A DNA stretch of 46,154 nucleotides, from assembly GCA_028282925.1 (NCBI GenBank), contig JANQGV010000240.1, positions 1 to 46,154 of the forward strand, given 5' to 3'. This document shows positions 2 through 28,917 of this stretch, one piece after another (position 1 is the first letter of the stretch; each line of letters opens with the position of its first letter). Under the pieces are notes generated by a model. The model was not told where the DNA came from, made no database searches, and saw only the letters and a program-made list of their open reading frames with translations. This stretch comes from Thermodesulfobacteriota bacterium (GTDB lineage Bacteria > Desulfobacterota > WTBG01 > CAIYCZ01 > CAIRTM01). Both the position numbers and the translations under genes were made by a program.

Positions 2-493
2 GGCACGGACATGATCTATGATGATGAGTTCGGCTGGGACGGCCACATCCTGCGCAATACCTATAAATATATCGGCAAAAAAGAGCTGCTGTGCTCCCGA
101 ACCCTGGACCACGCCAAGCTGGAGCGTCAACCGGGGCAGTCGATACCCAGCGGTATCCAGCGCGAGCGCCTGCAGACAATCGTAGTGGAGGTCAAGAACG
201 AAGACCCCAACTACATTTACGGTAAGCGGGTATGGTATCTGGACCCTGAAACGTACCTGATGCAGTGGACCGAGCTGTATGACGACCTGGACCGCTTCTG
301 GAAATGCTTTGAGATGCTGACCACCGATTTCAAGACCGAGCAGGGTGAAATGCGGCAGATGCCATCGGGCGTAGTCCTGATGGATTTCCAGCGCACCCAT
401 TCATCGCTGCCGCTGCACACTATCTACGAGGTCGGTCTGGAAAAGGTCGACAAGAGAATGTTTACCATCAGTAATCTGCAGAAGTCATACTAG
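2..493 (+). CDS. DUF1329 family protein, C-terminal part
   Basis: The frame is open to the left edge, so this is the C-terminal ~163 residues of a longer gene. It carries the pattern typical of the end of DUF1329 proteins, which are exported, LolA/LolB-like beta-rich proteins of the Gram-negative envelope: a WYLDPETYLMQW segment followed by YDDLDRFWKCFE. DUF1329 members are usually 400-460 residues, so roughly the first 60% lies outside the window. Their biochemical role is not established; an envelope lipid or hydrophobic-ligand function is often suggested from fold. A perfect hairpin follows 32 bases after the stop, so transcription probably ends before the next gene. Confidence 0.75.
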   Translation, partial: GTDMIYDDEFGWDGHILRNTYKYIGKKELLCSRTLDHAKLERQPGQSIPSGIQRERLQTIVVEVKNEDPNYIYGKRVWYLDPETYLMQWTELYDDLDRFWKCFEMLTTDFKTEQGEMRQMPSGVVLMDFQRTHSSLPLHTIYEVGLEKVDKRMFTISNLQKSY

Positions 494-645: not shown

Positions 646-1452
646 ATGGTTATTATCAGATATTCTGTTATTGTGCTGCTGGTGCTCATTATCCTGGCTG
701 CGGTTGTGGGTACCCCGTTGATTGTGAAAGCACGGGGCGAGGGTGAGCGGATGTATGCACAATACAATTCCTACACACGCAAGGTGCTGGCGGAACGAGT
801 AGCTTTGCAGCCCCATATTGTCAAGGCCGAATATCGGATCGTGCATCCCTGGAAGGCACTGAAGCTGTTCAGGATCGCCATCGACAGCAACCAAGGGGAA
901 AAATTCAGGAGACTGAATATCCTGGATGCGAACATGTTTTTGTTTATGAAAATGTTCACCTTTTTTATTCTCCCCAACTACAACTACAACCTGCCCATGC
1001 TTTCAGTTGATATTATTTTTATCGGGGGAAAGCGGGTGTTTGTCATTGAAGTGATTGACCCAGCCCGCATCGAAGATGAAAACCTGTTAAAGCATTATGA
1101 AAAACTGCGGGCCTGGAAACCCCAGGTGGATACGCTGGAGCATGCAGCTGTTGATATGGAATGGTGTAAGGATATCGTGACCGACTTCAGCATCCACAGT
1201 AAAGCCGACCGCTCCGACGACGAACTGTTGTTTTCCATATATACATCTTTTTTGAATACCTATCTTGATATGGCTGAGCATGCCCAGGTGTTACCCCCTG
1301 AAAAGAGTAAAAAAGTACAGGAGGGCATGGAGGGGTATGTCAATGCACTGCTTGCTAAAGGCGGCCCGGCTGTAGATGTCTTCAAGTTTTTGATCGGACC
1401 CGATAAGCAGCAGGAGTATGTTCGAACGGTTATGTTCGGTGTGGATCAGTAA
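646..1452 (+). CDS. Membrane-anchored homologue of ferredoxin-dependent bilin reductases (PcyA/HY2 family)
   Basis: This 268-residue protein has an uncleaved-looking hydrophobic segment at residues 6-26. The rest can be lined up by eye with cyanobacterial PcyA: FRRLNILDANMF and LPNYNYNLPMLSVDIIF match the PcyA central sheet, the following VIEVIDPA matches its DLSP stretch, and the last residues (YVRTVMFGVDQ) match the PcyA C-terminal helix. In this alignment PcyA Asp105 is kept (D122), but Glu76 and His88 are replaced by L93 and T105. Family members reduce biliverdin-type bilins with ferredoxin or flavodoxin; whether this one binds a bilin is unknown. The start is supported by AGGGAG 7 bases upstream. 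A divergent homologue follows directly. The membrane anchor is unusual for the family. Confidence 0.6.
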   Translation: MVIIRYSVIVLLVLIILAAVVGTPLIVKARGEGERMYAQYNSYTRKVLAERVALQPHIVKAEYRIVHPWKALKLFRIAIDSNQGEKFRRLNILDANMFLFMKMFTFFILPNYNYNLPMLSVDIIFIGGKRVFVIEVIDPARIEDENLLKHYEKLRAWKPQVDTLEHAAVDMEWCKDIVTDFSIHSKADRSDDELLFSIYTSFLNTYLDMAEHAQVLPPEKSKKVQEGMEGYVNALLAKGGPAVDVFKFLIGPDKQQEYVRTVMFGVDQ

Positions 1453-1524
1453 CCGCCATGTGTACCGGCATGGCGTAACAAAATAATACGTGGTTTATAA
1501 GCCAAAAATCAACAGGAGGATATG

Positions 1525-2262
1525 ATGAGTGCCACATCATTACCGGAATTTTGTTTCGAGACGTTATCAAAAGAAATCTCTTTGCAGCGTATTGAGGGCC
1601 TTGACGAAATAGAAAACGTCAAGCTTCTCAGCGGTGAGGACGGCGGGGGTATTAAAGTATATACCGGTGAAAGAGACACCAAGGTTACCCTGGTAGACTT
1701 CAAGCTGGGGGACGGGGTGCCGGTGCCTCATCACGATAACCGCCTGTGTGTGGGAGCTGAAATATTTCAGATTGTGCCCGACCTCAGCTATAAAATGCCT
1801 ACTTGGGGTATCAACTCAGTCATTATGAAAGACGGGTTTTATTATTTTGATACCGACTTTTCTTTCGGGTTCGATCTGGTGTTTGAATATGAGTATGTGA
1901 AGAAGTACATAGCCCCTTTCAATGATGTGTATCAGGAGTTCACGAAAAATCCTGATTTTAAAATGGTAACGTTTTATGAGTCGACCCCATGGGTACGAAC
2001 GTATATCTCACCGCTCTTTTTCTCGGCCATAGCAAAAACAGATAAGCTCGATCCGGTCTTTAAACTTGCCGAAGCGCTGATCGAGGTATGGCTGAAAATG
2101 TATCGCGATGCGGAGAAAGGCGATGATGCCTTGAAACAGCGCCAGCAGGAGCGCTTGAAAGCCCGCAGTGCCGGGTCCAAAGATTCCGACCGCATGGGAA
2201 AGGTTCTGTTCGGTGCGTACGGCCAGGAAACGTTTACAAAGTTCTTCAAGGCCATGACATAA
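1525..2262 (+). CDS. Second, more divergent bilin-reductase-fold protein
   Basis: This 245-residue soluble protein has no signal peptide. It shows the same fold signature as the upstream gene: a Y-K-M-P-T-W-G-I-N stretch aligns with the PcyA segment holding Asp105, followed by an aromatic sheet strand, and the end (DRMGKVLFGAYGQETFTKFF) aligns with the PcyA C-terminal DKTRRVLEKAFG...Y region. At the key positions it has N97 for Asp105 and I80 for His88, so bilin reduction by the known mechanism looks unlikely; it may bind a ligand or partner with the upstream protein. AGGAGG lies 5 bases before this ATG; an ATG three bases earlier would leave only 2 bases. Assignment rests on motif order, not on a search. 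Confidence 0.5.
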   Translation: MSATSLPEFCFETLSKEISLQRIEGLDEIENVKLLSGEDGGGIKVYTGERDTKVTLVDFKLGDGVPVPHHDNRLCVGAEIFQIVPDLSYKMPTWGINSVIMKDGFYYFDTDFSFGFDLVFEYEYVKKYIAPFNDVYQEFTKNPDFKMVTFYESTPWVRTYISPLFFSAIAKTDKLDPVFKLAEALIEVWLKMYRDAEKGDDALKQRQQERLKARSAGSKDSDRMGKVLFGAYGQETFTKFFKAMT

Positions 2263-2733
2263 CGGCGCAGGTGTTGGTGCATAGAGGAATGATCCTATAT
2301 GAGGCTTTCATCAGCTCCTTTGTTGCCGATACGAATATGCAGAATTGCTCTTAAGGGAATATTTATTTACTATATTGCCGGTGTTCTGATCAGCCCTCCG
2401 GTTGATCTGCACCGGCTTAATCCCGATTTTCACATTTATTTTGGTAAAAGCCCCATCCAGCATTATTCTTCCGGAGCTTTTGATTTACCCCTGATCGACA
2501 ACTTTACCGTCTCGGAATTGCTTGCCCAGGAACGCTCCTCTGTGCCGGACATAACGGCACCTGCAGGTTTTACAACACGATGCCCGGCTTCGGCAACCCC
2601 CGCACTGTGCTTAATAAGCACCACCCGCCTTCTTCTGTGAGTGTTAAGCGTCCTTTCGAACATATTGTTTTCAACTAGATCTATTTGCATTTTGACCTAT
2701 CATTTCAAAGATACAGAAAACAGGAGGACGGTT
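2263..2733. other. 471-bp gap without a supported gene
   Basis: An open frame at 2299-2640 has no convincing ribosome site and a protein-unlike composition (Ser/Pro/Leu/Arg rich, no conserved motif). I see no gene here. The last 15 bases hold the AGGAGG ribosome site of the flavodoxin-domain gene. Confidence 0.5.
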
Positions 2734-3813
2734 ATGAAATCCAACGCGAGAAAAGTTTTAGGCATCTGTTTGTTATTTTTCTTATTCGTACCCCAGGGTG
2801 CCGGGGCAGCCGGCAAAAAGGGCCTGCTGGTACATAACTCAGTTTACGGTTCAACCATTGAAACCGCTTACTGGGTCAAGGCTCTTATCGGCTATGAAAA
2901 CAAACTCGATGTCATGGCGCTGCCACAGGTCATCACTATCGAACCCTATGATTACGTTATCATAGGCAGCTTGACCCGGGACGAGAAGCCCACTGAAGAT
3001 GTGTATGCCTTTGTTGAACGTTTCAGAAAAGAGCTTTCTCAGAAGCAGGTTTGCTATTACCTGACCTGCGGTGATACCGACGAAACCATGATATTGAATA
3101 TTCCGGGAAAGAAGGCTCATCTTATCGGCGGCAGAAATTATCTTTTTGATATTCTGGAAACCATTCCTGAGGTCAAACCGGTGGTTATCGGCGGGTTCGG
3201 CGGCCGCCAGGTGATGCCGACCCTGAACACCTCCGATTCGTTCCGGGTCTGGCTGGTCGGCAAGCTGGCAAAAGAGGGTGCAGCCTGGGAGGGACTTGAT
3301 ATATGGGAGTCGCTGGTGCCGCAAAGGGTTGAAGCCTTTGCAAACGAGGTCAGGGGAAAAATACTGGGTCTCGGGCCCCGCGAAGATGCCGAGCAGTTTC
3401 GCCATTTCTGGCAAACATTGCAGCCTGCATCGCTGGATGATCCTGCAAAGAAGAAATACAACCCCCGGAAGTATACGGAGCATCACAGTACCGACAAGAT
3501 ACTTTACGTCCGGAGTCGCATGCCAGGAGATCTGGCCGCAGGGAAAGCGTTAATAGAAACGTGGTCAAAAGTGCACGGTTTCAGCTTGAAAGAACAGAAG
3601 TCGACTTTCTATAACACATACTATCATGCCGTTAAAAAATATGATGCCGGAGAGTTGGCCCTTCATGTTGTTGCGGCAACTCTGCCCGAAGATCCGGGAA
3701 ACGTCCATTTCTCGTTTCGCAATTATGACAAGCCGGACAAGCGTGAAAAACTTGAGAAGGACCTTCAGAAAGCACGGGAACGTATTAATGCATCGGGAAC
3801 TGTTGCTGAATAG
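2734..3813 (+). CDS. Exported flavodoxin-domain protein (HemG-like N-terminal half)
   Basis: The 359-residue protein starts with a cleavable signal peptide (residues 1-26, ending GAGAAG). A flavodoxin fold follows: the phosphate-binding loop reads VHNSVYGSTIETA (about 33-45), and YDYVIIGSLTRDEKP (about 75-90) corresponds to the second conserved strand of flavodoxin/HemG-type protoporphyrinogen oxidases. The C-terminal ~180 residues are not recognised and are rich in charged residues and Tyr. An exported flavodoxin is unusual, since FMN flavodoxins normally act in the cytoplasm. Its place after two bilin-reductase homologues suggests an electron donor or a tetrapyrrole-related role, but that is inference. 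The ATG has AGGAGG 7 bases upstream; an upstream in-frame start would bury the signal peptide. Confidence 0.6.
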   Translation: MKSNARKVLGICLLFFLFVPQGAGAAGKKGLLVHNSVYGSTIETAYWVKALIGYENKLDVMALPQVITIEPYDYVIIGSLTRDEKPTEDVYAFVERFRKELSQKQVCYYLTCGDTDETMILNIPGKKAHLIGGRNYLFDILETIPEVKPVVIGGFGGRQVMPTLNTSDSFRVWLVGKLAKEGAAWEGLDIWESLVPQRVEAFANEVRGKILGLGPREDAEQFRHFWQTLQPASLDDPAKKKYNPRKYTEHHSTDKILYVRSRMPGDLAAGKALIETWSKVHGFSLKEQKSTFYNTYYHAVKKYDAGELALHVVAATLPEDPGNVHFSFRNYDKPDKREKLEKDLQKARERINASGTVAE

Positions 3814-5763: not shown

Positions 5764-5837
5764 TGTTCTGTATCCTCCGTGAATTGATTTTAACAATATA
5801 GTCTTTCACAATGTATTTGCTTGAGATATATTTTAAT

Positions 5838-15890: not shown

Positions 15891-16181
15891 ATGAAAAAAG
15901 ACGACATTATTTCATTCGGATCAACAATCCCCATTGCCACCAGGTTCGACACCAATGAAGACTGGCGCTTTGAGCGTCCCGTCTGGAATCAGGAAAAGTG
16001 TATCCAGTGCGGTGTCTGTTTTCTGTCCTGTCCTGACGGCGCCATTCATGAAAATGACGAAGGCTACTATGAGGCTGATTTGCAGTACTGCAAAGGCTGT
16101 GGTGTTTGCATACAGCAGTGCTGGACCGGGTGCATTACGCTTGAACCGACGGTAGAACGCCCCCCATGGTTAATAAAATAA
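15891..16181 (+). CDS. PorD-like 2x[4Fe-4S] ferredoxin
   Basis: The 96-residue protein resembles the delta subunit of pyruvate:ferredoxin oxidoreductase: a ~35-residue lead, then EKCIQCGVCFLSCPDGAIHE and YCKGCGVCIQQCWTGCI. Cluster 1 is a normal CxxCxxCxxxCP; cluster 2 has Trp where Pro is usual, plus an extra Cys. PorD carries electrons from the catalytic subunits to ferredoxin. Here the next gene encodes a PorB-like protein but no PorA or PorC gene is present, so the pair must do something other than pyruvate oxidation. The ribosome site is weak. Confidence 0.75.
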   Translation: MKKDDIISFGSTIPIATRFDTNEDWRFERPVWNQEKCIQCGVCFLSCPDGAIHENDEGYYEADLQYCKGCGVCIQQCWTGCITLEPTVERPPWLIK

Positions 16182-16211
16182 GATGATTCTCTTGAGGAGA
16201 GCATACAGGTA

Positions 16212-17144: not shown

Positions 17145-17604
17145 AGCATCCATTGCAGCTATTTTGAAACAGTATGATTCCGGGCAGGATTCACTCATCT
17201 CCCTGATGCAGGATATCCAGAGCGCATTCGGGTATCTCCCTAAAGAAGCGTTGCAGCAGGCCGGCCGGGAACTGGACATACCGCTCAGCAAATTTTTTGC
17301 CGTTGCCTCTTTCTATAATTCATTCAACCTGGAACCCCAGGGCAAGCATACCATCTCCGTATGTGAGGGGACGGCCTGTCATGTTAAAAATGCCGACAAC
17401 CTGGCCCAGATGGTTGCCAGAGAGCTGGAATTAAACGGTGACGAAGGCACCAGCACCGACCGGCAGTTCACGCTGAAAAAAGTGCGCTGTCTCGGATGCT
17501 GCAGTATGGCTCCGGTCGTCAAAGTCAACGATGATATTCATGGATCCATGACCCAAACAAAAACCGCAACAATATTGAACCAGTATAGAAAAGACAAAAA
17601 GTGA
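17128..17604 (+). CDS. nuoE: NuoE-type [2Fe-2S] thioredoxin-like subunit
   Basis: The 158-residue protein has the NuoE/HoxE layout: a helical lead (LISLMQDIQSAFGYLPKEAL), FFAVASFYNSF, and four cluster Cys in VCEGTACHVKNA and KVRCLGCCSMAPVVKV. It forms the [2Fe-2S] partner of NuoF in soluble NADH dehydrogenase modules. The ATG at 17128 has AGGA about 8 bases upstream and overlaps the previous gene; an ATG at 17107 is less likely. The stop overlaps the start of the NuoF gene, so the two are translationally coupled. Confidence 0.85.
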   Translation: MKSSSKASIAAILKQYDSGQDSLISLMQDIQSAFGYLPKEALQQAGRELDIPLSKFFAVASFYNSFNLEPQGKHTISVCEGTACHVKNADNLAQMVARELELNGDEGTSTDRQFTLKKVRCLGCCSMAPVVKVNDDIHGSMTQTKTATILNQYRKDKK

Positions 17605-19502
17605 TGAAGGGCTCAACTTCCAAACGATTGGCAAAGCTGCAAAAGGAAGGGTTAACAACCCTCTTTCCGGAATCCACAAAAATTATGGTCGGCTCAGCTT
17701 CATGCGGTATTGCAGCCGGTGCAGATGCGGTGTTGCAGGCAATTACTGCTGAGGTCAAAAAGAAAAAGATGGATGCAGTGGTGCAGAAAGTCGGCTGCAT
17801 CGGACTCTGCTATCTTGAGCCCCTGGTCGACATCATCATTCCCGGTCGGCCGCGTCTGACTTACGGCAATGTAACGCCGGAAAAGGCAAAAGAGCTTGTG
17901 GCTGCCGCTAAAAAGGGCAAGGTTCTTGAAGGCGCCCTGGGAAAAATAACGGCGGAACCGTTCCTGATCGAGGGCACGGCCCGGGATTACAACGGAACCG
18001 CTGGGGGCGTTGATGATGTGCCGCTGTATGCGGAACTTCCATTTTACCGCAAGCAGAACCGTATAGCCCTGCGCAACTGCGGTTTTATCGACCCGGAAAA
18101 TATAACCGAATATATCGCCAAGGGCGGGTACCAGAGCCTGGCAAGCGTGCTGGAAAAAAGCAGCCCCGGGCGGATTGCTTCAGACGTTGAACGTGCAGGC
18201 CTGCGCGGACGCGGTGGGGCAGGGTTTCCTACCGGCAGGAAATGGAAAATATGCCTGAGTGCCCGTTCTGATGAAAAGTACCTGATCTGCAACGCCGATG
18301 AGGGCGACCCCGGTGCCTATATGGACCGCAGCATCCTCGAAGGCGACCCCCATGCGGTTATCGAGGGTATGCTCATCGGTGGATACGCCATCGGTGCAAC
18401 CCGCGGTTTTATCTATGTCCGGGATGAGTATCCCCTGGCGATAGAGCGTCTGGAAAAAGCCCTGGAGCAGGTGCGCGAGCACGGCCTGGTGGGCGAAAAG
18501 ATTCTCGGCTCCAGTTTTAATTTTGATATTACCATCAGCCGCGGTGCAGGCGCATTTGTGTGCGGCGAGGAAACCGCCCTGATCAAATCCATTGAAGGCG
18601 ACTGCGGTGAACCCCGCCAGCGGCCCCCGTTTCCGGCTGAAAGCGGTCTGTGGGGCAAACCGACTATTATTAATAATGTAGAAACCCTGGCAACCGTGCC
18701 GGTTATAGCGGCAAAAGGGGCTAAATGGTTTTCATCCATCGGCACCGACGGCAGCAAAGGCTCCAAAGTGTTCTCCCTTGTGGGCAATGTGAACAATATC
18801 GGTTTGGTTGAGGTTCCCATGGGAACAACCCTGCGGGACATTATTTTCGACATCGGCGGCGGCATCCCCAATAACAGGGCCTTCAAGGCCGTGCAGACCG
18901 GTGGTCCGTCGGGCGGCTGCATTCCCGAATCCCTGATAGACCTGCCGGTGGACTATGACGCACTGACAAAATCCGGCTCGATCATGGGTTCCGGCGGTCT
19001 GATCGTTATGGATGAAAAGACCTGTATGGTCGATGTCGCCAAATATTTCCTGGAGTTCCTCGAAAGTGAATCCTGCGGCAAATGCACCCCCTGCCGCGTC
19101 GGTGTGAAACGGATGCGGGAAATTTTGACCGATATCTGCGAGGGGAAAGCCGAGCTTGAAGATCTGACGCGCCTTGAGGATATGGCCGGGCTTATCAATG
19201 ATTCGGCCCTGTGTGCTCTTGGGCGCACCGCCCCCAATCCCGTACTGTCGACCCTGAAGTATTTCAAGGACGAATATCTGGCGCACATCCTCCTAAAAAA
19301 ATGTCCGGCGGGTGTGTGTAAAGACCTGATTACCTTCTCCGTGGACAAAAAGACCTGCATCGGCTGCGGTGCCTGCAAAAAGGCCTGCCCCGCAGATGCG
19401 GTGACCGGCGAGAAGAAAAAGGCCCATAAGATCAATACCAAAAAATGTATAAAATGCGGCGCCTGCCGGGAAGTGTGCCCGGTGAGCGCGGTGCTGACGT
19501 AA
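17604..19502 (+). CDS. nuoF: NuoF/HydB-type NADH-oxidising flavoprotein with extra Fe-S domains
   Basis: The ~632-residue protein has, in order: an N-terminal thioredoxin-like [2Fe-2S] domain (SASCGIAAGA, VGCIGLCYLEP); the FMN/NADH core (LRGRGGAGFPTGRKW, NADEGDPGAYMDRS, GAGAFVCGEETALIKSIEG); a SLBB-like section; the SLBB-following [4Fe-4S] site (ESCGKCTPCRVG...CALG); and a C-terminal 2x[4Fe-4S] ferredoxin domain (TCIGCGACKKACP, KCIKCGACREVCP). This is the form used by electron-bifurcating hydrogenases, formate dehydrogenases and related enzymes rather than complex I. ATG at 17604 overlaps the previous stop (TGATG); a GTG at 17601 is an alternative. It should oxidise NADH or reduce NAD, with Fe-S carriers as partners. 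Confidence 0.9.
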   Translation: MKGSTSKRLAKLQKEGLTTLFPESTKIMVGSASCGIAAGADAVLQAITAEVKKKKMDAVVQKVGCIGLCYLEPLVDIIIPGRPRLTYGNVTPEKAKELVAAAKKGKVLEGALGKITAEPFLIEGTARDYNGTAGGVDDVPLYAELPFYRKQNRIALRNCGFIDPENITEYIAKGGYQSLASVLEKSSPGRIASDVERAGLRGRGGAGFPTGRKWKICLSARSDEKYLICNADEGDPGAYMDRSILEGDPHAVIEGMLIGGYAIGATRGFIYVRDEYPLAIERLEKALEQVREHGLVGEKILGSSFNFDITISRGAGAFVCGEETALIKSIEGDCGEPRQRPPFPAESGLWGKPTIINNVETLATVPVIAAKGAKWFSSIGTDGSKGSKVFSLVGNVNNIGLVEVPMGTTLRDIIFDIGGGIPNNRAFKAVQTGGPSGGCIPESLIDLPVDYDALTKSGSIMGSGGLIVMDEKTCMVDVAKYFLEFLESESCGKCTPCRVGVKRMREILTDICEGKAELEDLTRLEDMAGLINDSALCALGRTAPNPVLSTLKYFKDEYLAHILLKKCPAGVCKDLITFSVDKKTCIGCGACKKACPADAVTGEKKKAHKINTKKCIKCGACREVCPVSAVLT

Positions 19503-19547
19503 ATAACGCGGAAAGAACTTATTGTACGGTAAACAGAGGTACATGCA

Positions 19548-20309
19548 ATGATCACAATAACTATTGATGGTAAAGCGGTTACGGTTCCCGAAGGAACGAC
19601 GATACTGGAAGCTGCACAACAAACAGGCATCTGGATACCGACCCTGTGTCACCACGAATCCCTCACCCCGTACGGCGGCTGCAGGCTGTGTGCGGTTGAA
19701 GTAGCGGGTGATAACGGTACCCAGATCGTGTCCGCCTGTACTTTTGCGGCGGTAAACGGGCTTGTCGTGGAAACCGCAACCGAGCGCGTTCTGAATATCA
19801 GAAAATTCATCATTGAGCTGCTTCTGGCCGAAGCCCCCCAGGCAAAAGTGCTGCAGGACATGGCACAGGCACTGGGAGTTGTTCAGCCCCAGCGTTTTAC
19901 CCCGCGCAATGAGCTGTGTATCGCCTGCGGACAATGCGTCCGGGCCTGCCGCGAAATCGTCGGTGTCAGCGCCGTTGATTTTGCAAACCGCGGCTATGAG
20001 CGCATTGCTGCAGCACCGTTTTTTCAGCGCTCGGAAGACTGCATCGGCTGCGGAACCTGCGTAGCTGTTTGTCCGACCGGCGCAATTACCATGCGCGACA
20101 TTGCCGAAGGGGAAAAGGCAACAGTGCCGGACGGCGAAACACTGGAAGGACCGGCCCGCATTATGGATAACTGGAAGGTCGGCTTCAAAATGAAACGCTG
20201 TACGAAATGCGGAGAACCCTTTGCCCCTGAATTTCAACTTGAGCAGATATCGAAAAAGGTTTCTCTGCCGGACGACTTTTTTGATGTATGTCGGCAGTGC
20301 AGAATGTAA
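19548..20309 (+). CDS. HoxU/NuoG-N-terminus-like Fe-S protein with Cys-pair tail
   Basis: The 253-residue protein starts with a plant-type [2Fe-2S] domain (TLCHHESLTPYGGCRLCAVEV, SACTF), followed by two [4Fe-4S] motifs (CIACGQCVRACREIVG, CIGCGTCVAVCPTGAI). The His-Cys3 [4Fe-4S] site usual between them in HoxU and NuoG is absent: the ELLLAEAPQAKVLQDMA stretch has no His or Cys. The C-terminus adds two Cys pairs (RCTKCGEPF, VCRQC) that look like a zinc ribbon. No hydrogenase domain follows. It probably links NuoEF to another acceptor. Confidence 0.8.
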   Translation: MITITIDGKAVTVPEGTTILEAAQQTGIWIPTLCHHESLTPYGGCRLCAVEVAGDNGTQIVSACTFAAVNGLVVETATERVLNIRKFIIELLLAEAPQAKVLQDMAQALGVVQPQRFTPRNELCIACGQCVRACREIVGVSAVDFANRGYERIAAAPFFQRSEDCIGCGTCVAVCPTGAITMRDIAEGEKATVPDGETLEGPARIMDNWKVGFKMKRCTKCGEPFAPEFQLEQISKKVSLPDDFFDVCRQCRM

Positions 20310-20533: not shown

Positions 20534-20770
20534 ATGAGAGTAAATCGAGAAGTATGTGTAGGATGCGGAGCCTGTGTGAATCTCTGCCCGCGGCTTGCCA
20601 TACGGTTTATTGACGACAAATCCTTTATTGACCAGGAATCATGTATCGAATGCGGTACCTGTCGGGCCAGTTGCGGCGTAGACGCCATATACTGCGACTG
20701 CCGCTTCCCGGATGTTATGCTGCTGAACTTTTCCAGTAACCCGTTCGGTGAGTCGGAACCGGGTCAATAA
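20534..20770 (+). CDS. 2x[4Fe-4S] ferredoxin with C-terminal extension
   Basis: The 78-residue protein has two cluster motifs: CVGCGACVNLCPRLAI and CIECGTCRASCGVDAI. In the second, Gly replaces the usual Pro after the last Cys. A ~25-residue extension (after DCRFPDVMLL) is extra to the bacterial ferredoxin core. Closest relative in the window is the 56-residue ferredoxin at 25835. It probably carries electrons from the NADH module to the next gene's flavoprotein. Confidence 0.85.
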   Translation: MRVNREVCVGCGACVNLCPRLAIRFIDDKSFIDQESCIECGTCRASCGVDAIYCDCRFPDVMLLNFSSNPFGESEPGQ

Positions 20771-20926: not shown

Positions 20927-22240
20927 ATGAAAAACGCGTATGATTTTGTCGTGATCGGTGCCGGGCCGGCAGGTTTGATGATAGCTAAAGAGCTTTCAGG
21001 CGCCGGTCAGGATGTCCTGCTGGTAGACGTTAAAAGAGATATTCCCAAAATCAACCGCTCATGCTGTACCATGCTGATCAATGAGCCCAACACCCACGGA
21101 GAAACCGTACGGTTTGTCGACAATGATCTCCACTTCGAGAAGACCGGGTTTACCGTAAAATACGGACATCCGTATGTGAAGATGGTTAAAAGTTCGCGTT
21201 TGTCGCCCGGCGGGTACAAGCTCACCATGGGCAATGAAAAAGAGGGCGTGGCACTGCCCTATACCAAGGAAATCATTCTGCGCAACCTGCTGGAAGAGTC
21301 CATGGCCAACGGCTGTGATGTTTTGACCGAAACCGCCGGAATCCGAGCGGAAAACATCGACGGTGGGGTTAAGGTCACCCTGCGCGACAACTATACCCGC
21401 AGCCTTAAAGAGATACGGTGCAAAGCGGCATTTGCCGCCGACGGCGTCAACTCGCAGATTGTTACCGGTCTTGAGTTGTTTAAAACCCGCAAATATATCG
21501 GATCCTTCCGAGTGGCATCGTACTTCCTGGACGAAGTCGACTATCCCTACTGGGATTCCTGGATTACCTGCGTCGGCAAGGGACACACCCCCTGGGGCCG
21601 CGGCCAGGTCTACATGGTGCCCAAATACCTTCCCGATGCCAAGGAGGGCGACAAGCCCATACTGGATGTGTTCTGCGGTACGCCCTGCGGCATGCCGGCC
21701 AAAATGGGACTCGATTGGTTCTTGAACGACGGTCCGTTCAACGAATGGTTCACCAATGCCAAAATCGTACATAAAGCAGCCTGCGTACTCAACTTTTACA
21801 CCTGTATCATGAATCCGGTGGAAGGCAATATCGTAGTGGTGGGTGATGCCGCCGCTTTTATCGAAACCTATTGCCAGTCAGCCCTGATGTACGGCTACCG
21901 CGCAGCCCATGCCGCCCTGAAGGTGCAGGATAAAGGTAAGGGGTATGAAGACTATACCAATTTCTGGCGCGAAAGCTTTGAATACTGCTGGCCGGGCGAA
22001 ATTGAAAAAGCGCTGCAGGGGTTCGGTCTCGGCAACATGCAGGATGAAGAACTGGACTACATTTTCAGCCTGACGGACAACGAGATGTACGAGGGGTATG
22101 TCAGTGAGAATACCGCTCCCTATGTTATGCAGAAGGCCATTATGAGCCATATCGATCAGATCAGGAAAGAGCGCCCCCAGATTGCCGAACTGATAGAGAA
22201 ACACTGGAGTGCATCGGCTGAAGATATCGTTAAAGGATAA
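20927..22240 (+). CDS. GGR-family FAD-dependent oxidoreductase, copy 2
   Basis: The 437-residue flavoprotein has GAGPAGLMIA at 11-20, the strand-end acid of LLVDVK, an AADGVNS motif and IVVVGDAAAFIETYCQSALMYG in the second FAD-binding motif. C46-C47 (NRSCCTML) correspond to the Cys seen in copies 1 and 3. It follows the ferredoxin gene after ~155 bases with its own AGGAG ribosome site. A rho-independent terminator follows. Together with the NADH module it is a plausible reductase endpoint; the substrate is unknown. Confidence 0.75.
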   Translation: MKNAYDFVVIGAGPAGLMIAKELSGAGQDVLLVDVKRDIPKINRSCCTMLINEPNTHGETVRFVDNDLHFEKTGFTVKYGHPYVKMVKSSRLSPGGYKLTMGNEKEGVALPYTKEIILRNLLEESMANGCDVLTETAGIRAENIDGGVKVTLRDNYTRSLKEIRCKAAFAADGVNSQIVTGLELFKTRKYIGSFRVASYFLDEVDYPYWDSWITCVGKGHTPWGRGQVYMVPKYLPDAKEGDKPILDVFCGTPCGMPAKMGLDWFLNDGPFNEWFTNAKIVHKAACVLNFYTCIMNPVEGNIVVVGDAAAFIETYCQSALMYGYRAAHAALKVQDKGKGYEDYTNFWRESFEYCWPGEIEKALQGFGLGNMQDEELDYIFSLTDNEMYEGYVSENTAPYVMQKAIMSHIDQIRKERPQIAELIEKHWSASAEDIVKG

Positions 22241-22476: not shown

Positions 22477-24267
22477 ATGTTACGTAAAAACCGTTTTTTG
22501 TTGTTTGTAAGTTTTGTGTGTTTGCTTTTTCCTGCTTTGATCTTCTCGGGATGCGCGAATAAAGATCCCATTACCTACTGTGGCGAACTGGAAGAAAACG
22601 GCCCCTGGGCCAATTGCAATCCGGACCGGTATGACATTGACGGGCCGGCCGAGCGTCTCCTTGACCAGGGCGTTTCCAAGATCATCATCGCCGATAATAC
22701 CATGGGCGGACCGCGTTTTTCCAAAACGTTTGATGTTGTCCAGATGACCAAACGCGCCATGGTGGCCTGGGAAAAGAAACAGGCCGATGCCTCCAGCCCT
22801 GTGGAGGCGATTGCCGGCAAAATCGGTGTTATCCTCGTTGTACATGGCGGGTTCAAAGAATATACCCCCCTGGACCTGTTTGACGCCAGTGTCAACATGT
22901 TCTCCTATGACCCCAACCATCCGGTGACCATGTTGTATGCGTTCAATAAAAACAACTGGAATCAAATTCTCTCCTCCGGCAATGCGGCCAAAGAGCAGAT
23001 TAAATACGCCTTTGAATATGAACGCCTCGGCGGAGTCGACCCGTTTAATGCAATTACCGCGAGTACCCTGGCTCAACTTTCAGCCGAACTTGATACCCTT
23101 GGAGAAGAAAACAACCTGGAATTTGTTGTGGACTGGGCCTGCTGGATGTGCGGCGGCACCCCTGAGAATTATGCTTTCCCGCGCTATTTATACACCCCCA
23201 ACGATTATGAGTTGAACATCCCGGCCGAGGAACCGGCCACCCCCATTGTATGGATCAACGACGCCTCAGACCTGATGGAACGCACCTACCCTACGGAGCC
23301 GAAGAACTGGACCCGCTCCAAAGGCATGCCGGACACCAACCCGACACCGTCACTCGACAGCGGCATCAACCCCGTTGCCGAAGACCAGGTGATAGCGCAA
23401 CTGCACATGGAGGCCATTGAGGCTTCCCTTTCTTCGACGGTTGCCGACAAGGATACCGGTGTGCTGGTGCTGAACCACGCCATTTGGAGCAACAACGAGA
23501 CATTCGACCCTAAAATAGACGATACCCTTACTATTATTAAAAACATGGAGCAGCTCCTGCTCACCGCCCATCCCGATCTCGACCCCGATAATATTGTGGG
23601 AGCCTATATGGGTGTGAAAGAGGAAAACCCCGAAAACGGCAGAACTGAACGGACCCGTCCCATGCGCGGCGAAAATCTCGGCCATGCATACCTGTATGAA
23701 AGCGACAAACAACTGCCGTCCGGAAAATGGGGCTACCGCTACTGGGACGCCCTTGAATACCTGAAGAACCGGGGTGTAAAGCACATCGTGGTCGGTTTTA
23801 CCCATATCGTTGCCGACTCCGTGCTGAACCTGGTTGAGATCCCGAACCAGATCGGTAAAGAGATCGGCTATAAAAACTGGCTCTACTGGCCCGAAGGGAA
23901 CAATGAAACCTATCCCGGCGTGGGACATCCGTTTACCGACTACTGGGGCAACTGGGTTGAAACCGAATGCGACGGCGAAGAGTGCTGCTTTGAAATGGGC
24001 GGCTGTGAAGACGGAGGGACCTATCCGCCCCCGCGGCAGACACCCCTGTATTCGTCGCGCGGAGATGAGGATCCGTCGCTGGCATACGACGTGTGCGAGT
24101 ACGGCCACCTGGGCTATGATCCCTTGATGGGCGCTCCCGACCCGAATGCGCCGGTGCAGGACCAGTACACCGGGACCTGGGCCATGTACAGACCGCCCAA
24201 CGATGATGTGCGCCTGGCTGAAATGCTGGCGAAGCACGTGCTTACCTATGCGTTGCAGAATGATTAG
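22477..24267 (+). CDS. Lipoprotein with chelatase-superfamily-like features
   Basis: The 596-residue protein has a lipoprotein signal peptide ending IFSGC (lipidated C26). The mature part contains strand-plus-motif segments reminiscent of class II chelatases (CbiX/ferrochelatase fold): GKIGVILVVHGGFKEYTPLD (about 115-134) and RGVKHIVVGFTHIVADSVLN (about 432-451). A Cys-rich loop ECDGEECCFEMGGCEDGG lies near residue 505. If a chelatase fold, it would be an unusual outer-membrane or periplasmic one and may bind rather than insert metal or tetrapyrrole. The assignment is by pattern only and tentative. AAGGAGG lies 5 bases before ATG 22477. Confidence 0.45.
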   Translation: MLRKNRFLLFVSFVCLLFPALIFSGCANKDPITYCGELEENGPWANCNPDRYDIDGPAERLLDQGVSKIIIADNTMGGPRFSKTFDVVQMTKRAMVAWEKKQADASSPVEAIAGKIGVILVVHGGFKEYTPLDLFDASVNMFSYDPNHPVTMLYAFNKNNWNQILSSGNAAKEQIKYAFEYERLGGVDPFNAITASTLAQLSAELDTLGEENNLEFVVDWACWMCGGTPENYAFPRYLYTPNDYELNIPAEEPATPIVWINDASDLMERTYPTEPKNWTRSKGMPDTNPTPSLDSGINPVAEDQVIAQLHMEAIEASLSSTVADKDTGVLVLNHAIWSNNETFDPKIDDTLTIIKNMEQLLLTAHPDLDPDNIVGAYMGVKEENPENGRTERTRPMRGENLGHAYLYESDKQLPSGKWGYRYWDALEYLKNRGVKHIVVGFTHIVADSVLNLVEIPNQIGKEIGYKNWLYWPEGNNETYPGVGHPFTDYWGNWVETECDGEECCFEMGGCEDGGTYPPPRQTPLYSSRGDEDPSLAYDVCEYGHLGYDPLMGAPDPNAPVQDQYTGTWAMYRPPNDDVRLAEMLAKHVLTYALQND

Positions 24268-24316
24268 CCTGACCGGTGTTGAGCGACAAAGCTGAATGAT
24301 AGTATAGTGTGCGTAA

Positions 24317-24358
24317 GCCCATTGCCCCACCGATGGTGGAGAAGTGCGGGTAATGGGC
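24317..24358 (+). terminator. GC-rich hairpin before the Tat gene pair
   Basis: GCCCATTGCCCC (24317-24328) pairs imperfectly with GGGTAATGGGC ending at 24358, and a smaller CCACC-GAT-GGTGG hairpin is nested within it. It may end the lipoprotein transcript; no T-run follows. Confidence 0.45.
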
Positions 24359-24415
24359 CGACCTTATACCGCGTGGAACAACTAAACCATATTTTTAACA
24401 CAGGGGGACTATTTT

Positions 24416-25060
24416 ATGGCTGATGTATCCAGACGCACCTTTGGTAAACGAACGCTGCTGCTCTCGTGCCTGACGGCACTGAGCCTGCCGGGGACCGCCC
24501 GGGCGTTTTTCGACAAAGTGAAAAAAGACACCTTTCTCAAGCGGGACGATGTGGGTAATGCCCTGAAATCGTATTATATGACCTATGACTGCACGTCGCC
24601 CTATCCGCACAAGTTTAATGAAGTGGTCACCAAGCAGCAAATGCGCAGCCTGCAGTTTTACATCGACCACAACATTGAAAAAGAGTATATCCAGCATTAC
24701 CTCGACACCAAAAAGCCCTGGCTGCAGGAACTGCGGCAGTTGGTGGAAAAGGAGGGTGCCGAAAAGGGACTTGTGAGCATGTTCGACGACAATCCCAGCG
24801 CGTATCAGCTTTTTGAGCGTATTGATGCAAAGCCCGGGCAGCGGACCTTTCCGTGCCCCTACAAGGAACTGCTGGTACAGTGTAAAAAATATCTCAAGAC
24901 GTTTACCATAGAATGGAACGATGTTTGTAATAAATGGTGTACCCCCACCTGGAAGGGCGTTGCCGGACAGATCGGCATTGATATTACGGTGGCGCCGGGA
25001 GAAACCTGTTCGGTTACACTCAATCAACCGCAACAATCACAGGGAGGGGAGAAATCATGA
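24416..25060 (+). CDS. Tat-exported Cys-containing protein, copy 1
   Basis: The 214-residue protein has a Tat signal (SRRTFGKR, hydrophobic core LLLSCLTALSLPG). The mature part shares blocks with the next gene: KRDDVGNALK, PYPHKFNEVV, CPYKELL, EWNDVCNKWCTPTWKG and GETCSV. The paired Cys (DVCNKWC) and final Cys could bind a metal or Fe-S cluster, which fits Tat export of a folded protein. The C-terminal pattern is loosely like the L-2-amino-thiazoline-4-carboxylic acid hydrolase/V4R-type folds, but this is weak. It overlaps the next gene by 4 bases (ATGA). Confidence 0.6.
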   Translation: MADVSRRTFGKRTLLLSCLTALSLPGTARAFFDKVKKDTFLKRDDVGNALKSYYMTYDCTSPYPHKFNEVVTKQQMRSLQFYIDHNIEKEYIQHYLDTKKPWLQELRQLVEKEGAEKGLVSMFDDNPSAYQLFERIDAKPGQRTFPCPYKELLVQCKKYLKTFTIEWNDVCNKWCTPTWKGVAGQIGIDITVAPGETCSVTLNQPQQSQGGEKS

Positions 25061-25728
25061 AAACAAATCTGACAGAATCTACGAAAACACCTGAAACAAC
25101 CCCGGTTAACAAAGAGCCGGAGAAAATATACCGCCGGGATTTTGCCAAAACAGCCGTTGCCGCCGGCGTGCTTTCATCTTTATCGCTTTTTACAGCCCCT
25201 GAGGCCGCCCTGGCCTGGATGGACGGCAAGTTCCATGAGCGTGATGACCTGGGAGATGCCTTCAAGGCCCTGGTTAAAACCTACAGCGATGTGGACCCCT
25301 ATCCGCACAAGTTCAGCGACGCCCTGGTAAAAATGCACCTGCGCGACCTTGATTTTGCCATTAAAAAAGGCCTCGACAAAGAGTTTGCCGACCATTTTGT
25401 GCTGACCCTGGGCGTGTTGATCAACCGCTATATTAAAAAGGGTGTTGAGCAATTCGGAAAAGATATATTCCTGTGGGGCATTTTCGAGCGGACCACCTGT
25501 TCCTATCAGTTGTACGACACTATCGATATCAAGAAGGACGTCCGGTCGGTTCCGTGTCCGTATAAACCCATGCTGGATAACATCAACGGCAAGATGGTCA
25601 ACTATGACATCAAGTGGAACGATGTCTGCAATAAGTGGTGCATTCCGGTCTGGAAAGGTTTCGCCGACGTTGCCGGTGTCGGTATTGATGTAAAGACCGG
25701 CATGACCTGTACGGTCCGGGTGGTATAA
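25057..25728 (+). CDS. Tat-exported Cys-containing protein, copy 2
   Basis: The 223-residue paralogue of the preceding gene has a longer N-terminal lead and a Tat motif (YRRDFAKTAV, R26-R27). The conserved blocks are HERDDLGDAFK, PYPHKFSDAL, CPYKPML, KWNDVCNKWCIPVWKG and GMTCTV. Identity between the two mature parts looks about 35-40% by eye. Tandem, overlapping genes of two diverged copies suggest a heterodimer or two subunits of an exported complex. Function unknown. Confidence 0.6.
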   Translation: MKTNLTESTKTPETTPVNKEPEKIYRRDFAKTAVAAGVLSSLSLFTAPEAALAWMDGKFHERDDLGDAFKALVKTYSDVDPYPHKFSDALVKMHLRDLDFAIKKGLDKEFADHFVLTLGVLINRYIKKGVEQFGKDIFLWGIFERTTCSYQLYDTIDIKKDVRSVPCPYKPMLDNINGKMVNYDIKWNDVCNKWCIPVWKGFADVAGVGIDVKTGMTCTVRVV

Positions 25729-25834
25729 GTAATCAGAGCAAGAGTATCCTCCCGGCGCTCCTCTCCTTTTAAAAAGAGGATGTGACCGGTGGGGATCGGA
25801 TTTTAGAATGTTTCATAAGTGAAAGGAACGTATC

Positions 25835-26005
25835 ATGATTAGAGTTGATAGAGAACTCTGTGTAGGCTGCGGCGGATGTGTCGACCTGTGCCCCAGAACA
25901 GCGATCGGATTTGTGAAGGACCGTGCCCATGTTGATTGCAAGCTGTGTCTTGAGTGCAAGACCTGTGTAAAAGTGTGTCCCATGAAGGCTCCCCAGCTCA
26001 TATAA
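25835..26005 (+). CDS. Short 2x[4Fe-4S] ferredoxin
   Basis: The 56-residue ferredoxin reads ELCVGCGGCVDLCPRTAIGF and CKLCLECKTCVKVCPMKAP: two complete CxxCxxCxxxCP motifs. It resembles the N-terminal part of the ferredoxin at 20534, including the opening M-x-R-V. GAAAGGAA lies upstream of the ATG. It follows the Tat pair after ~105 bases, likely in the same transcript, and is a cytoplasmic electron carrier. Confidence 0.85.
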   Translation: MIRVDRELCVGCGGCVDLCPRTAIGFVKDRAHVDCKLCLECKTCVKVCPMKAPQLI

Positions 26006-26482
26006 CCACAACCGACAGGGTGTTCTATGGTATCGGCCAGTCAATGTCCGGCATATCTTGATGCGGTGCATTTCAGACAGCGGCTTTCTTCCGGCCTGAA
26101 GCGGCATGGGAAGACCGCCGTGAGGTTGTTCCATATCGTTTTGTATACGTGCAGCTTCCTGCATATGGTAACCAGCCCGAGTATGGCTGAGGTGCGTCAG
26201 CAGGTTGCCTGCAACCAGGGCAAGCGGATTCAGGTCCGCATTGTCCAGCATCAAGTGCGGGGGACGGGAGTTTCCTCCCTGCCCCTGGCAACCCGACATA
26301 CCCCCCGTATTTACACGGCGGCAGCCTCCGGCAATGCGTTGCAGTGCCTTCAGCCGTCGGCTTCCTTTATTACCCACCTGGCAACAACAGTGCTCCTCCT
26401 ATAATGTAACCGGCGTTACCTGAACCTTTGTGTCGGTATTCATTCGTCGATGTACATTATATCCTAAAAAGGAGGAAGAAAG
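26006..26482. other. 477-bp gap, possible decayed coding sequence
   Basis: A plus-strand open frame at 26027-26404 (125 residues) has no ribosome site or recognised domain. Another plus frame gives RREVVPYRFVYVQLPAYG, protein-like but interrupted by stops at both ends. Coding is not supported; this could be a degraded gene. Confidence 0.3.
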
Positions 26483-27934
26483 ATGTTGAGCATTCTACTC
26501 TATATACTTTTGGGCATCGTTGTATTTTTTATCCTGCTTTTTGTGGGCTTCAAAATCATGTGTAAAATTAAAAACAAGAGGCTTGAGCCCGATTACTATG
26601 AAATTTACAAACAGCAGGACACCGTCCCCACCGGCAAAGTGGGCCTTTTCATCACCGGGCTGATTGTGACCGAAAAAATGAGTCATACGTTTTTTTTCAA
26701 TATAACGAAGAAGATTTTCAACACCATCATCCCCTGGCCGTTCCGTCTTTTCTCGTATATGGATAAGGGCGTGGCACTGCTGGACGAGGTCAAGTATCAC
26801 GAGCACCACGAATTTACGCCCACCAAGCTCGTCGACCCTTACGGCAACGATCGCTACATCGATGGCGAGCCCTATATTGAAAAATACAAACGGGGTGAAG
26901 TGCAGTGGGTTGAGCCGTCAAAACGTATCTGGCTCGATCACGGCTACTTTCTCTACACCGAATGCAAGGCGGGCATACCCTCGCTTACCGGTAAAACCAT
27001 GAACCGGGCCAATCTCTGGTACTATGATAAAGGTATCAAACAGAAAAAAATGCCCCACGAAGAGGGCACGATGGACATCGTCAACGGCGCTATTGCCAAA
27101 GTCAGGGAAAAATATTCCGACATTCCCTGTGAGGCCGAAAACAGTATGTTTTATCATGAAATGCGCATGAAGCTGCACAAGCTGCTGGATGACGGCTGCG
27201 AAACCATTGTGCTGTCGGCCCCCATGGCAATTTATTCCCATTTTGAAGAATTCAACTCCAGCTTCCGGCACTGTTTTGAGTATATCGAGGAGTGGGAGCA
27301 GAAACACAACAAAAAGATTAAAGTCATTATGGCCCCGCCGTTCGGCCATTTCCAGCCTGCGCGCCAGGCATGGCTCGACATGCTGAAAGACCGTCTGGAC
27401 TCCATCCCTGAAGGATCAGACGTTATGGTGGCGGTAACCGTGCACGGCATGCCCTGGGACCACTTTGCCTGGGAAGCTTGGCTGGAACTGGCTCCGCCCT
27501 ATCGCGACACGCTGACCGAAGAAGTAAAAGAACTGGTCGCCTCATACACGTTCAACCGTACCGACGTGCAGGTCTGCCAGGATGAGTTCGCCAACCCGAT
27601 TTGGGACCCAAAGGAAAAGTACCTGTCGACCAACATGGTGTACAAAAAAGGGATCAAAGAGGGCTACGATTATGTCATCGGCCTGCCCATAGAGTTCTTT
27701 GCCGAAAACTCGGACACCCTGTATCATCATGCCATGCAGAATTATCACGGCATTGAAGGCTATGATGTATATGAAGTGCTGGACTACCCGGACTGGTCGG
27801 TGCCCTATGTGAAAGAAATGAAACAGGGAAAAACACACGTTATCTACAACGGTGTGCCGGTGGGCAAATACCAGCCCAACGTCATCGAGGCCCTGTTCCA
27901 GTCAATAGATGAGATACTCAAGAAAAAGAAATAA
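26483..27934 (+). CDS. Membrane-anchored ferrochelatase-like protein
   Basis: The 483-residue protein has one N-terminal membrane helix (residues 4-24). The C-terminal ~270 residues resemble ferrochelatase: TIVLSAPMAIYSHFEEFNSS in place of the LPLYPQYS strand, VAVTVHGMPWDHF with H321 in the position of the catalytic His, PPYRDTLTEEVKELV, and GYDYVIGLPIEFFAENSDTLY where the ferrochelatase acidic residue region lies (E408, D411). Ferrochelatases are ~310-360 residues, so the first ~190 residues are extra. Metal insertion is not proven. AAAGGAGG precedes the ATG. Confidence 0.5.
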   Translation: MLSILLYILLGIVVFFILLFVGFKIMCKIKNKRLEPDYYEIYKQQDTVPTGKVGLFITGLIVTEKMSHTFFFNITKKIFNTIIPWPFRLFSYMDKGVALLDEVKYHEHHEFTPTKLVDPYGNDRYIDGEPYIEKYKRGEVQWVEPSKRIWLDHGYFLYTECKAGIPSLTGKTMNRANLWYYDKGIKQKKMPHEEGTMDIVNGAIAKVREKYSDIPCEAENSMFYHEMRMKLHKLLDDGCETIVLSAPMAIYSHFEEFNSSFRHCFEYIEEWEQKHNKKIKVIMAPPFGHFQPARQAWLDMLKDRLDSIPEGSDVMVAVTVHGMPWDHFAWEAWLELAPPYRDTLTEEVKELVASYTFNRTDVQVCQDEFANPIWDPKEKYLSTNMVYKKGIKEGYDYVIGLPIEFFAENSDTLYHHAMQNYHGIEGYDVYEVLDYPDWSVPYVKEMKQGKTHVIYNGVPVGKYQPNVIEALFQSIDEILKKKK

Positions 27935-28008: not shown

Positions 28009-28917
28009 ATGCTCTATCTCATCGGCGGGGCACTCTTACTTATCTACAGCCTGCTCGTTCTGCTGACCCTGATGCCCAGGGCGGCGCAGCCTGTGCGGGA
28101 TCTTGCAGGCCCGCAGGCCCGCTTTATCAAAATCAACGGCCACACCATCCATTACATACAACAGGGGCAGGGTCAACCTGTTGTGCTGGTGCACGGTTTC
28201 GGCGGGTGGACCTATACCTGGCGAAAACTGATCCCCCTGCTTGCTGAGAACAACACGGTGTATGCCCTTGATCTGCTGGGATTCGGCCTGTCGGACAAGC
28301 CGGCCGGGGGGCCCTACGATTTTGCCTCCCAGGCCCGCCTGGTGGTCGATTTTATGGAAGCCATGCAGCTCCGGTCCGCTACGCTCGCAGGTCACTCCAT
28401 GGGCAGTGTTGTGGCGGCCCAGACCGCCGCCCGGTATCCTGAAAAAATTGATAACCTGGTAATAATTACCGGAATTTTTCACGGCGGGGGCCGACCGGAT
28501 GTTTTGAAAGTACTGCCGTATCCATTCGATCGGCTTTTAGCCCGGGCTTTTTACACCCGTACGCTGCAGAAAAAGACCCTTGCTATCGGCTACCATGACA
28601 AAACGCTGGTGACCCCGGAGGTGGTTGATGCCTATCTGCGGCCCGGACGTACCCCGCAAGCGCTGGCTTCCTTTGCCGCCCTGGTTACCGGCGACGCCCT
28701 TGACATTCCGCCCGGTATCTCCTCCCAGATTAGAGTGCCCACCTGTATTATCTGGGGTGCCGATGATAAGGCAACTCCCCTGGCAAGCGGCCACGCGTTG
28801 CACCGGGAGATTGCAGGGTCGCGTTTCGTCACCATCCCGGATTGCGGTCATTTTGTGCCGGAGGAACAGCCTGAAAAGCTCGCCGCGGCTGTTTTGCGAT
28901 TCATCGGCAGAGATTAA
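28009..28917 (+). CDS. Alpha/beta hydrolase with N-terminal membrane anchor
   Basis: The 302-residue protein has a hydrophobic N-terminus (residues 3-22) and a full alpha/beta hydrolase core: oxyanion loop VHGFGGWTYTW, nucleophile elbow AGHSMGS with S130, acid in IIWGADDKATPL, and catalytic His in PDCGHFVPEEQP. It is related to the haloalkane dehalogenase/epoxide hydrolase/esterase (MhpC-like) group. Substrate unknown. It is the last gene of the plus-strand run after the ferrochelatase-like gene and may be co-transcribed. Confidence 0.8.
   Translation: MLYLIGGALLLIYSLLVLLTLMPRAAQPVRDLAGPQARFIKINGHTIHYIQQGQGQPVVLVHGFGGWTYTWRKLIPLLAENNTVYALDLLGFGLSDKPAGGPYDFASQARLVVDFMEAMQLRSATLAGHSMGSVVAAQTAARYPEKIDNLVIITGIFHGGGRPDVLKVLPYPFDRLLARAFYTRTLQKKTLAIGYHDKTLVTPEVVDAYLRPGRTPQALASFAALVTGDALDIPPGISSQIRVPTCIIWGADDKATPLASGHALHREIAGSRFVTIPDCGHFVPEEQPEKLAAAVLRFIGRD

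Follow-up and report, generated by a model that had tools for sequence, protein, structure and literature searches.

What are two genes for chelatase-like proteins, one with a lipoprotein signal and the other with a membrane anchor, doing so close together in an uncultured, probably anaerobic bacterium? The question is raised by contig JANQGV010000240.1 of a Thermodesulfobacteriota bacterium (phylum Desulfobacterota; assembly GCA_028282925.1). The whole stretch analyzed, 46,154 nucleotides, is called the window here, and coordinates given without a locus number refer to it. The two genes are named LIP (22477..24267, +; a lipoprotein of 596 amino acids) and MEM (26483..27934, +; a membrane-anchored protein of 483 amino acids). 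We find that LIP and MEM are variants of a known chelatase fold; the surprising part is their recurrent association with expanded genes related to ferredoxin-dependent bilin reductases (FDBRs) and with genes that resemble those of dark protochlorophyllide reductase (DPOR; BchLNB), in a lineage that lacks heme oxygenase. We put the probability that LIP and MEM are parts of a clade-specific, oxygen-independent tetrapyrrole-processing system at about one in two.

Fold, active site, and location of LIP and MEM

MEM matches the Pfam family PF00762 with 41.9 bits (E = 8e-11), over the gathering cutoff of 27, and scores far under the cutoff of the NCBIfam hemH equivalog TIGR00109 (36.5 versus 124.6 bits). 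LIP stays below the PF00762 cutoff of 27 bits (11.2 bits; E = 0.18) and has no match to TIGR00109, and 14 of the 19 members of its family match PF00762 at E values of up to 1, the best being 2.9e-4. PDB sequence searches with LIP or MEM alone returned nothing useful; a profile of the LIP family reached ferrochelatase there weakly (E = 0.06). The AlphaFold model of MEM, predicted with 31 relatives, has a mean pLDDT of 94.7. Ferrochelatases alone make up its top matches in the PDB (Foldseek E = 2.5e-10; VIA Z score, 25.4; root mean square deviation [rmsd], 3.6 Å over 317 residues), followed by SirB (Z = 18.8), FetB (9b86; Z = 15.9), and CbiK (2xvx/2xvz; Z = 15.6). The lower confidence of the LIP model (mean pLDDT, 69.9) is plausibly due to a swapped block, described below, that has just one aligned relative. 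Ferrochelatases are again the top Foldseek matches (E = 7.5e-4); VIA gives a Z score of 19.3 and an rmsd of 3.9 over 286 residues for LIP against human ferrochelatase, with Z scores of 10.8 against periplasmic CbiK (2xvx/2xvz) and 9.6 against FetB (9b86). Judged from the predicted structures, both proteins belong to the class II chelatase superfamily (HemH/CbiK/SirB fold), with two Rossmann-like domains in the chelatase arrangement. A sequence-only reading of the window had called both proteins chelatase-like; the check that it proposed, structure prediction followed by Foldseek, bears this out, with ferrochelatases leading for both proteins and no turn to the unrelated folds that it had named as a refutation.

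The active sites point in the same direction. H321 of MEM (27443..27445, +), which lies in the segment VTVHGMPWDH and had been singled out as a candidate catalytic residue, aligns with the catalytic histidine of HemH proteins from the same phylum and is invariant in 31 MEM-family sequences. All H263 variants of human ferrochelatase that have been studied are inactive (PMC9133952). In the HemH alignment, E408-N409-S-D411 of MEM (27704..27715, +) stands in place of D-H-x-E, so that the HemH motif D-H-x-E-T-L reads E-N-S-D-T-L in MEM and E-N-T-D-T in a second MEM subfamily; E408, N409, and D411 are likewise invariant in the 31 sequences. MEM thus resembles a chelatase whose active site has changed in a consistent and conservative way rather than decayed. 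H334 of LIP (23476..23478, +), which by the fold takes the position of the catalytic histidine after the first strand of domain 2, is invariant among 19 LIP-family sequences, and H123 is nearly so; the family alignment also reveals large insertions in LIP. It is unlikely that MEM is the heme ferrochelatase of this organism. The genome has five MEM-family copies and an AhbD-like gene (497.8 bits versus a cutoff of 500) that adjoins a related radical-SAM gene; with these two genes, heme is probably made via the siroheme route, for which a ferrochelatase is not needed.

The N terminus of LIP consists of an n-region (MLRKNR), a hydrophobic stretch, and a lipobox-like F-S-G-C26. Since many LIP relatives carry lipobox-like cysteines too, an envelope location of the LIP family is well supported. 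The N-terminal transmembrane helix of MEM (26483..26551, +) has no positive residue in its N-terminal flank and a C-terminal flank of +5/−2, with five positive residues within 15 positions. Among 22 close MEM relatives, several likewise start without a positive charge ahead of the helix, and at least three such charges follow it in nearly all. By the positive-inside rule, this distribution suggests that the MEM domain probably faces the cytoplasm. Thus, of the earlier proposal that both proteins lie outside the membrane or are anchored to it, the export signal of LIP and the membrane helix of MEM stand, but an external placement of MEM is doubtful. The second MEM subfamily (L016, L017, L097, L098, and others), some members of which have lipobox-type cysteines, looks exported. 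Separately, chelatase-like proteins of 610 to 770 amino acids, weakly related to MEM (E values from 1e-11 to 1e-28), are encoded at L086:6991-8847, L094:6856-8688, and L099:7101-9410; one of them has a lipobox-like N terminus.

LIP differs from its paralogues in the order of its segments. Paralogues have the order VxHGG block, YCGE..TKRA block, and rest, and tblastn and blastp comparisons place the first two blocks of LIP in exchanged positions: residues 28 to 102 (22558..22782, +) form the block that comes after the HGG block in paralogues, and residues 108 to 241 (22798..23199, +) form the VVHGG block that comes first in them. The same exchanged order is found in genome G002, which belongs to a second genus, in a protein with 61% identity across its whole length and at a syntenic locus that holds an NADH/FeS module, a ferredoxin, an FAD oxidoreductase, and the Tat pair, with MEM on the opposite strand. 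This shared order rules out an assembly error; therefore, the swap is a real, inherited rearrangement inside one ferrochelatase domain. The swapped LIP and its G002 counterpart are sisters on the phylogenetic tree, with weak support (0.11) for a single origin. The segment-swapped lipoprotein is an unusual natural case of blocks reordered within a single ferrochelatase domain.

Neighborhoods of the chelatase genes

MEM was surveyed within a phylum sample of 395 Desulfobacterota genomes and occurs in 13 of them, all of one class; two named genomes have relatives, Deltaproteobacteria bacterium Zod_Metabat.1117 and Thermodesulfobacteriota bacterium PL23a_bin.71. The source genome carries five LIP-family genes alongside its five MEM-family genes, and it encodes additional chelatase-like proteins of more distant kinship. 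FDBR-family matches number 14 in the source genome and 6 to 17 in twelve relatives. Among 58 genomes, the FDBR family is present in 13, all MEM positive, and absent from the other 45, one of which (G004) is MEM positive. We found no heme oxygenase in the clade. A profile of 31 FDBR members matches bilin reductases (1.7e-34) and red chlorophyll catabolite reductase (RCCR; 2e-9) in the PDB. The window encodes two such proteins. The first, with an N-terminal membrane helix (646..1452, +), exceeds the PF05996 cutoff of 31 bits (65.3 bits; E = 8.1e-18) and matches NF009720 (9e-12); the second is a divergent relative (1522..2262, +) that is under the PF05996 cutoff alone (19.4 bits; E = 8.9e-4) and whose counterpart in G002 (L081:9872-10615) sits between the Tat pair and MEM. 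The equivalent of PcyA Asp105 is present in the first protein and many paralogues and is Glu or Asn in others, and PcyA His88 is not conserved, a pattern described for pre-PcyA proteins (PMC10151467).

The chelatase genes also lie close to FDBR genes more often than expected. Of 24 LIP genes, 7 have an FDBR gene no farther than 5 kb away, versus an upper-bound expectation of 0.81 (P of about 1e-5), and 7 of the 39 MEM genes have one no farther than 10 kb away, versus an expectation of 2.6 (P = 0.014); these P values are indicative, as orthologous loci were treated as independent. In two genera, a ferredoxin-FDBR fusion gene is found about 400 bp from MEM. A further locus, L122:449-3674, has three tandem FDBR genes, whose products are one protein with a signal peptide, one soluble protein, and one fused to a 2x[4Fe-4S] ferredoxin.

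A third family with tetrapyrrole-acting relatives recurs in such neighborhoods. Contig C65 of the source genome (L153:6901-11656) carries a nitrogenase-like operon of two NifH-like genes, one NifD-like gene, and one NifK-like gene, which adjoin DUF1302, DUF1329, and MMPL genes. The NifK-like protein (L153:6904-8670) has BchB as its best family match (2.3e-50) and a C-terminal PCP_red domain over the cutoff (PF08369; 5.8e-15). The C65 proteins fall under the NCBIfam cutoffs for DPOR (206 to 213 versus 345 bits for L, 60.2 versus 420 for N, and 171.9 versus 490 for B). The same gene set is next to an FDBR gene in G002 and next to an FDBR gene and two HemH/CbiX-like genes in G013, and nitrogenase-like reductases are present in many of the 13 genomes with MEM and FDBR genes.

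Two modules recur in the neighborhood map. One comprises DUF1329-DUF1302-MMPL-YCF48 genes, FDBR, an FAD oxidoreductase, LIP and/or MEM, flavodoxin, an FMN split-barrel protein, and an alpha/beta hydrolase. The other comprises MarR, two membrane proteins, an aldehyde ferredoxin oxidoreductase of the tungsten type, several exported flavodoxins, an FrhB-like protein, and the exported MEM subfamily, and a NosR-like membrane protein is part of the cluster; it is kept in L017 (L017:5326-13048), L082, L090, and L095, and L096 has the same module, its MEM gene having been located by a separate search. DUF1302/DUF1329/RND modules serve apolar, hydrophobic monoterpenes in Castellaniella (PMC6394551), which by analogy suggests a hydrophobic substrate here too.

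Gene order around LIP and MEM is ferredoxin, FAD oxidoreductase, LIP, two genes for Tat-exported proteins, a 754-bp gap, MEM, and hydrolase. The sequence-only reading had LIP and MEM bracketing the Tat pair and the ferredoxin as one extracytoplasmic system. The Tat pair does lie between them, but the ferredoxin (2x[4Fe-4S]; 20534..20770, +; positional counterpart in G002, L081:4998-5246) is upstream of both. The block is kept in the second genus, in favor of that proposal; against it, the MEM domain probably faces the cytoplasm, and the MEM gene is on the opposite strand there. Beyond the LIP-Tat-MEM block, the wider association with bilin reductases and DPOR-like reductases is the informative part of the neighborhood.

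The FAD oxidoreductase (20927..22240, +) is geranylgeranyl-reductase-like (TIGR02032; 4e-20, under the cutoff), and its relatives adjoin bilin-reductase-like genes at L121 and L129/L130. Tat-exported protein 1 (24416..25060, +; SRRTFGK; 214 amino acids; orthologue, L081:8501-9142) and its paralogue, Tat-exported protein 2 (25057..25728, +; YRRDFAK; 223 amino acids), belong to the same protein cluster (cluster 6). Neither has a Pfam family over the cutoff, and protein 1 has no Pfam match; the tandem paralogues (24416-25728) show C-P-Y and V-C-x-x-W-C motifs. The alpha/beta hydrolase gene identified by family search (28009..28917, +) starts 74 bp after MEM, and in L123, L091, and L131 members of its family are again close to genes for bilin reductases or chelatases. 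Assignment of this hydrolase as a pheophytinase failed, its best matches being general hydrolases.

At the left end of the window lies the C-terminal part of a DUF1329 protein of the Ame-type hydrophobic transport module (2..493, +; cluster 7; family confirmed on L081:13636-14901). The flavodoxin-domain protein at 2641..3813 (+; PF12724, 3.5e-11) is probably exported. The gene at 4984-5796 (−) encodes an exported protein in which one CXXCH heme-c motif (residue 72) is fused to an FMN split-barrel (PNPOx-like) domain; a relative is found at L121:1-981, near an FDBR gene. A NuoE/NuoF/NuoG-like NADH-FeS module with ferredoxins (15891-20309), kept in G002, is likely the electron input to the system.

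Tetrapyrrole processing and competing explanations

The chelatases are found in the same genomes, and partly at the same loci, as bilin-reductase-like proteins, nitrogenase-type reductases resembling DPOR, flavodoxins, FAD reductases, alpha/beta hydrolases, and a transport module for hydrophobic compounds. These neighborhoods bring together three unrelated families (chelatase-fold, FDBR-like, and DPOR-like) that have tetrapyrrole-acting relatives; the case for a tetrapyrrole substrate rests mainly on this, and the tetrapyrrole link of the neighborhoods is well supported. We infer that the chelatases of such a system demetalate or bind a pigment, and we infer also the substrate, the direction of the reaction (metal removal versus insertion), and every other step beyond tetrapyrrole binding. 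A hydrophobic metallo-tetrapyrrole, either chlorophyll/pheophytin-like or heme-like, would be met at the envelope by LIP, which would bind it or remove its metal. After uptake, MEM-type chelatases would handle the pigment at the inner membrane, and the hydrolase might take off the ester tail. Low-potential electrons from ferredoxin, flavodoxin, and the NADH module could then enable the FDBR-like and DPOR-like enzymes to reduce the macrocycle or linear products. Carried further, and held only tentatively, this leads to an undescribed anaerobic pathway in which a class of Desulfobacterota would take up, demetalate, and reductively dismantle chlorophyll- or heme-derived tetrapyrroles using exported chelatases (one permuted), expanded FDBR-like enzymes, and a DPOR-like nitrogenase relative. 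Our literature search found no paper tying Desulfobacterota to bilin reductases and nothing specific on anaerobic chlorophyll or porphyrin breakdown. To our knowledge, tetrapyrrole (e.g., chlorophyll) processing in oxygen-free sediments has no gene-level explanation. A heme-oxygenase-free lineage with multiplied, co-located chelatase-fold and FDBR-like genes and a DPOR-like link is a concrete, testable candidate for it.

Several observations weigh against this proposal. Every one of the 31 MEM sequences has Asp (D411) in place of the catalytic Glu (human E343), and E343D in human ferrochelatase impairs a step after chelation (PMC9133952). Some 20 kb separate both FDBR genes of the window from the chelatase genes, and the product of the gene at 1522 is without the PcyA Asp105 equivalent. 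The MEM-FDBR linkage is weakly significant, the linkage counts include orthologous loci, which are not fully independent, and the genomes compared are draft assemblies. Finally, we identified no enzyme for anaerobic ring opening; radical SAM matches of the HutW/ChuW type were all below the cutoff, and this candidate was dropped.

The same genes could serve biosynthesis instead of breakdown. The DPOR-like and FDBR-like enzymes would then build a new, reduced tetrapyrrole cofactor, as in F430 or bacteriochlorophyll synthesis, and the chelatases would insert its metal (Ni, Co, Fe, or other). For the NifH-like proteins, the scores with NifH and with CfbC, a protein of F430 synthesis, are about the same, and two HemH/CbiX/CfbA-like proteins are encoded within the same G013 cluster, as this explanation would have it. 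Yet it would be unusual for one cofactor pathway to have exported lipoproteins, hydrolases, a transporter of hydrophobic compounds, and 6 to 17 copies of FDBR in each genome, and the BchN-type proteins are far under the cutoff for a true DPOR subunit. We regard biosynthesis as improbable. Metal scavenging strikes us as unlikely to a similar degree: LIP and its relatives would be surface proteins that bind or dechelate heme for iron acquisition, like FetB or HmuS, and the FDBR-like genes would be a separate clade trait. The structural matches to FetB (9b86) and periplasmic CbiK (2xvx/2xvz) and the de-chelatase precedent of HmuS (PMC12583661) fit, but the clustering of LIP with FDBR genes does not; we noticed neither a TonB receptor nor a heme ABC transporter in the loci read, and five copies per family in the source genome seem excessive for iron uptake. 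About as unlikely is that the fold was reused as a noncatalytic binder of another hydrophobic ligand, with the FDBR-like and DPOR-like enzymes here also acting on nontetrapyrroles; changes of E343 to Asp and H341 to Asn throughout the MEM family, the large insertions in LIP, and the service of DUF1302/DUF1329/RND modules to terpenes elsewhere (PMC6394551) would suit such reuse, whereas the catalytic histidine is invariant in both families and three separate families with tetrapyrrole-acting relatives share the neighborhoods.

Comparison with known systems

Compared with HemH/CpfC ferrochelatases (PF00762), LIP and MEM share the whole two-domain fold over 286 to 318 aligned residues and the catalytic histidine, and MEM passes the family cutoff. 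Identity, however, is 12 to 16%, and a lipobox or an N-terminal membrane helix is added; MEM has E-N-S-D for D-H-x-E and a large insertion (residues about 100 to 190), whereas LIP has swapped segments. Periplasmic CbiK of Desulfovibrio vulgaris (2xvx) shares the class II chelatase fold, the cell envelope, and a sulfate-reducing host but is half the size, with lower structural scores (Z = 15.6 for MEM and 10.8 for LIP); we know of no association of CbiK with bilin reductases. FetB of Porphyromonas gingivalis (9b86), a lipoprotein, has the same fold but handles heme or Mn-porphyrin, has about 260 residues, and scores lower (Z = 15.9 for MEM and 9.6 for LIP). FetB changes the metal of porphyrins, and porphyrin products build up on the outer membrane surface (PMC13402209). 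Since exported class II chelatases are thus known, lipidation alone is not novel, and the earlier remark that known class II chelatases lack it is not a strong argument.

The proteins encoded at 646 and 1522, together with about a dozen paralogues, share the superfamily of ferredoxin-dependent bilin reductases, pre-PcyA proteins, and RCCR. Its described members, which reduce bilins or chlorophyll catabolites, work downstream of an oxygen-dependent opening of the ring (PMC10151467); here, in contrast, the clade yielded no heme oxygenase and genomes carry 6 to 17 copies. Similarly, the gene families of the Ame-type DUF1302/DUF1329/RND module of Castellaniella adjoin chelatase or FDBR genes here, and a module that is tied to monoterpenes in Castellaniella is tied to tetrapyrrole-type enzymes in these genomes.

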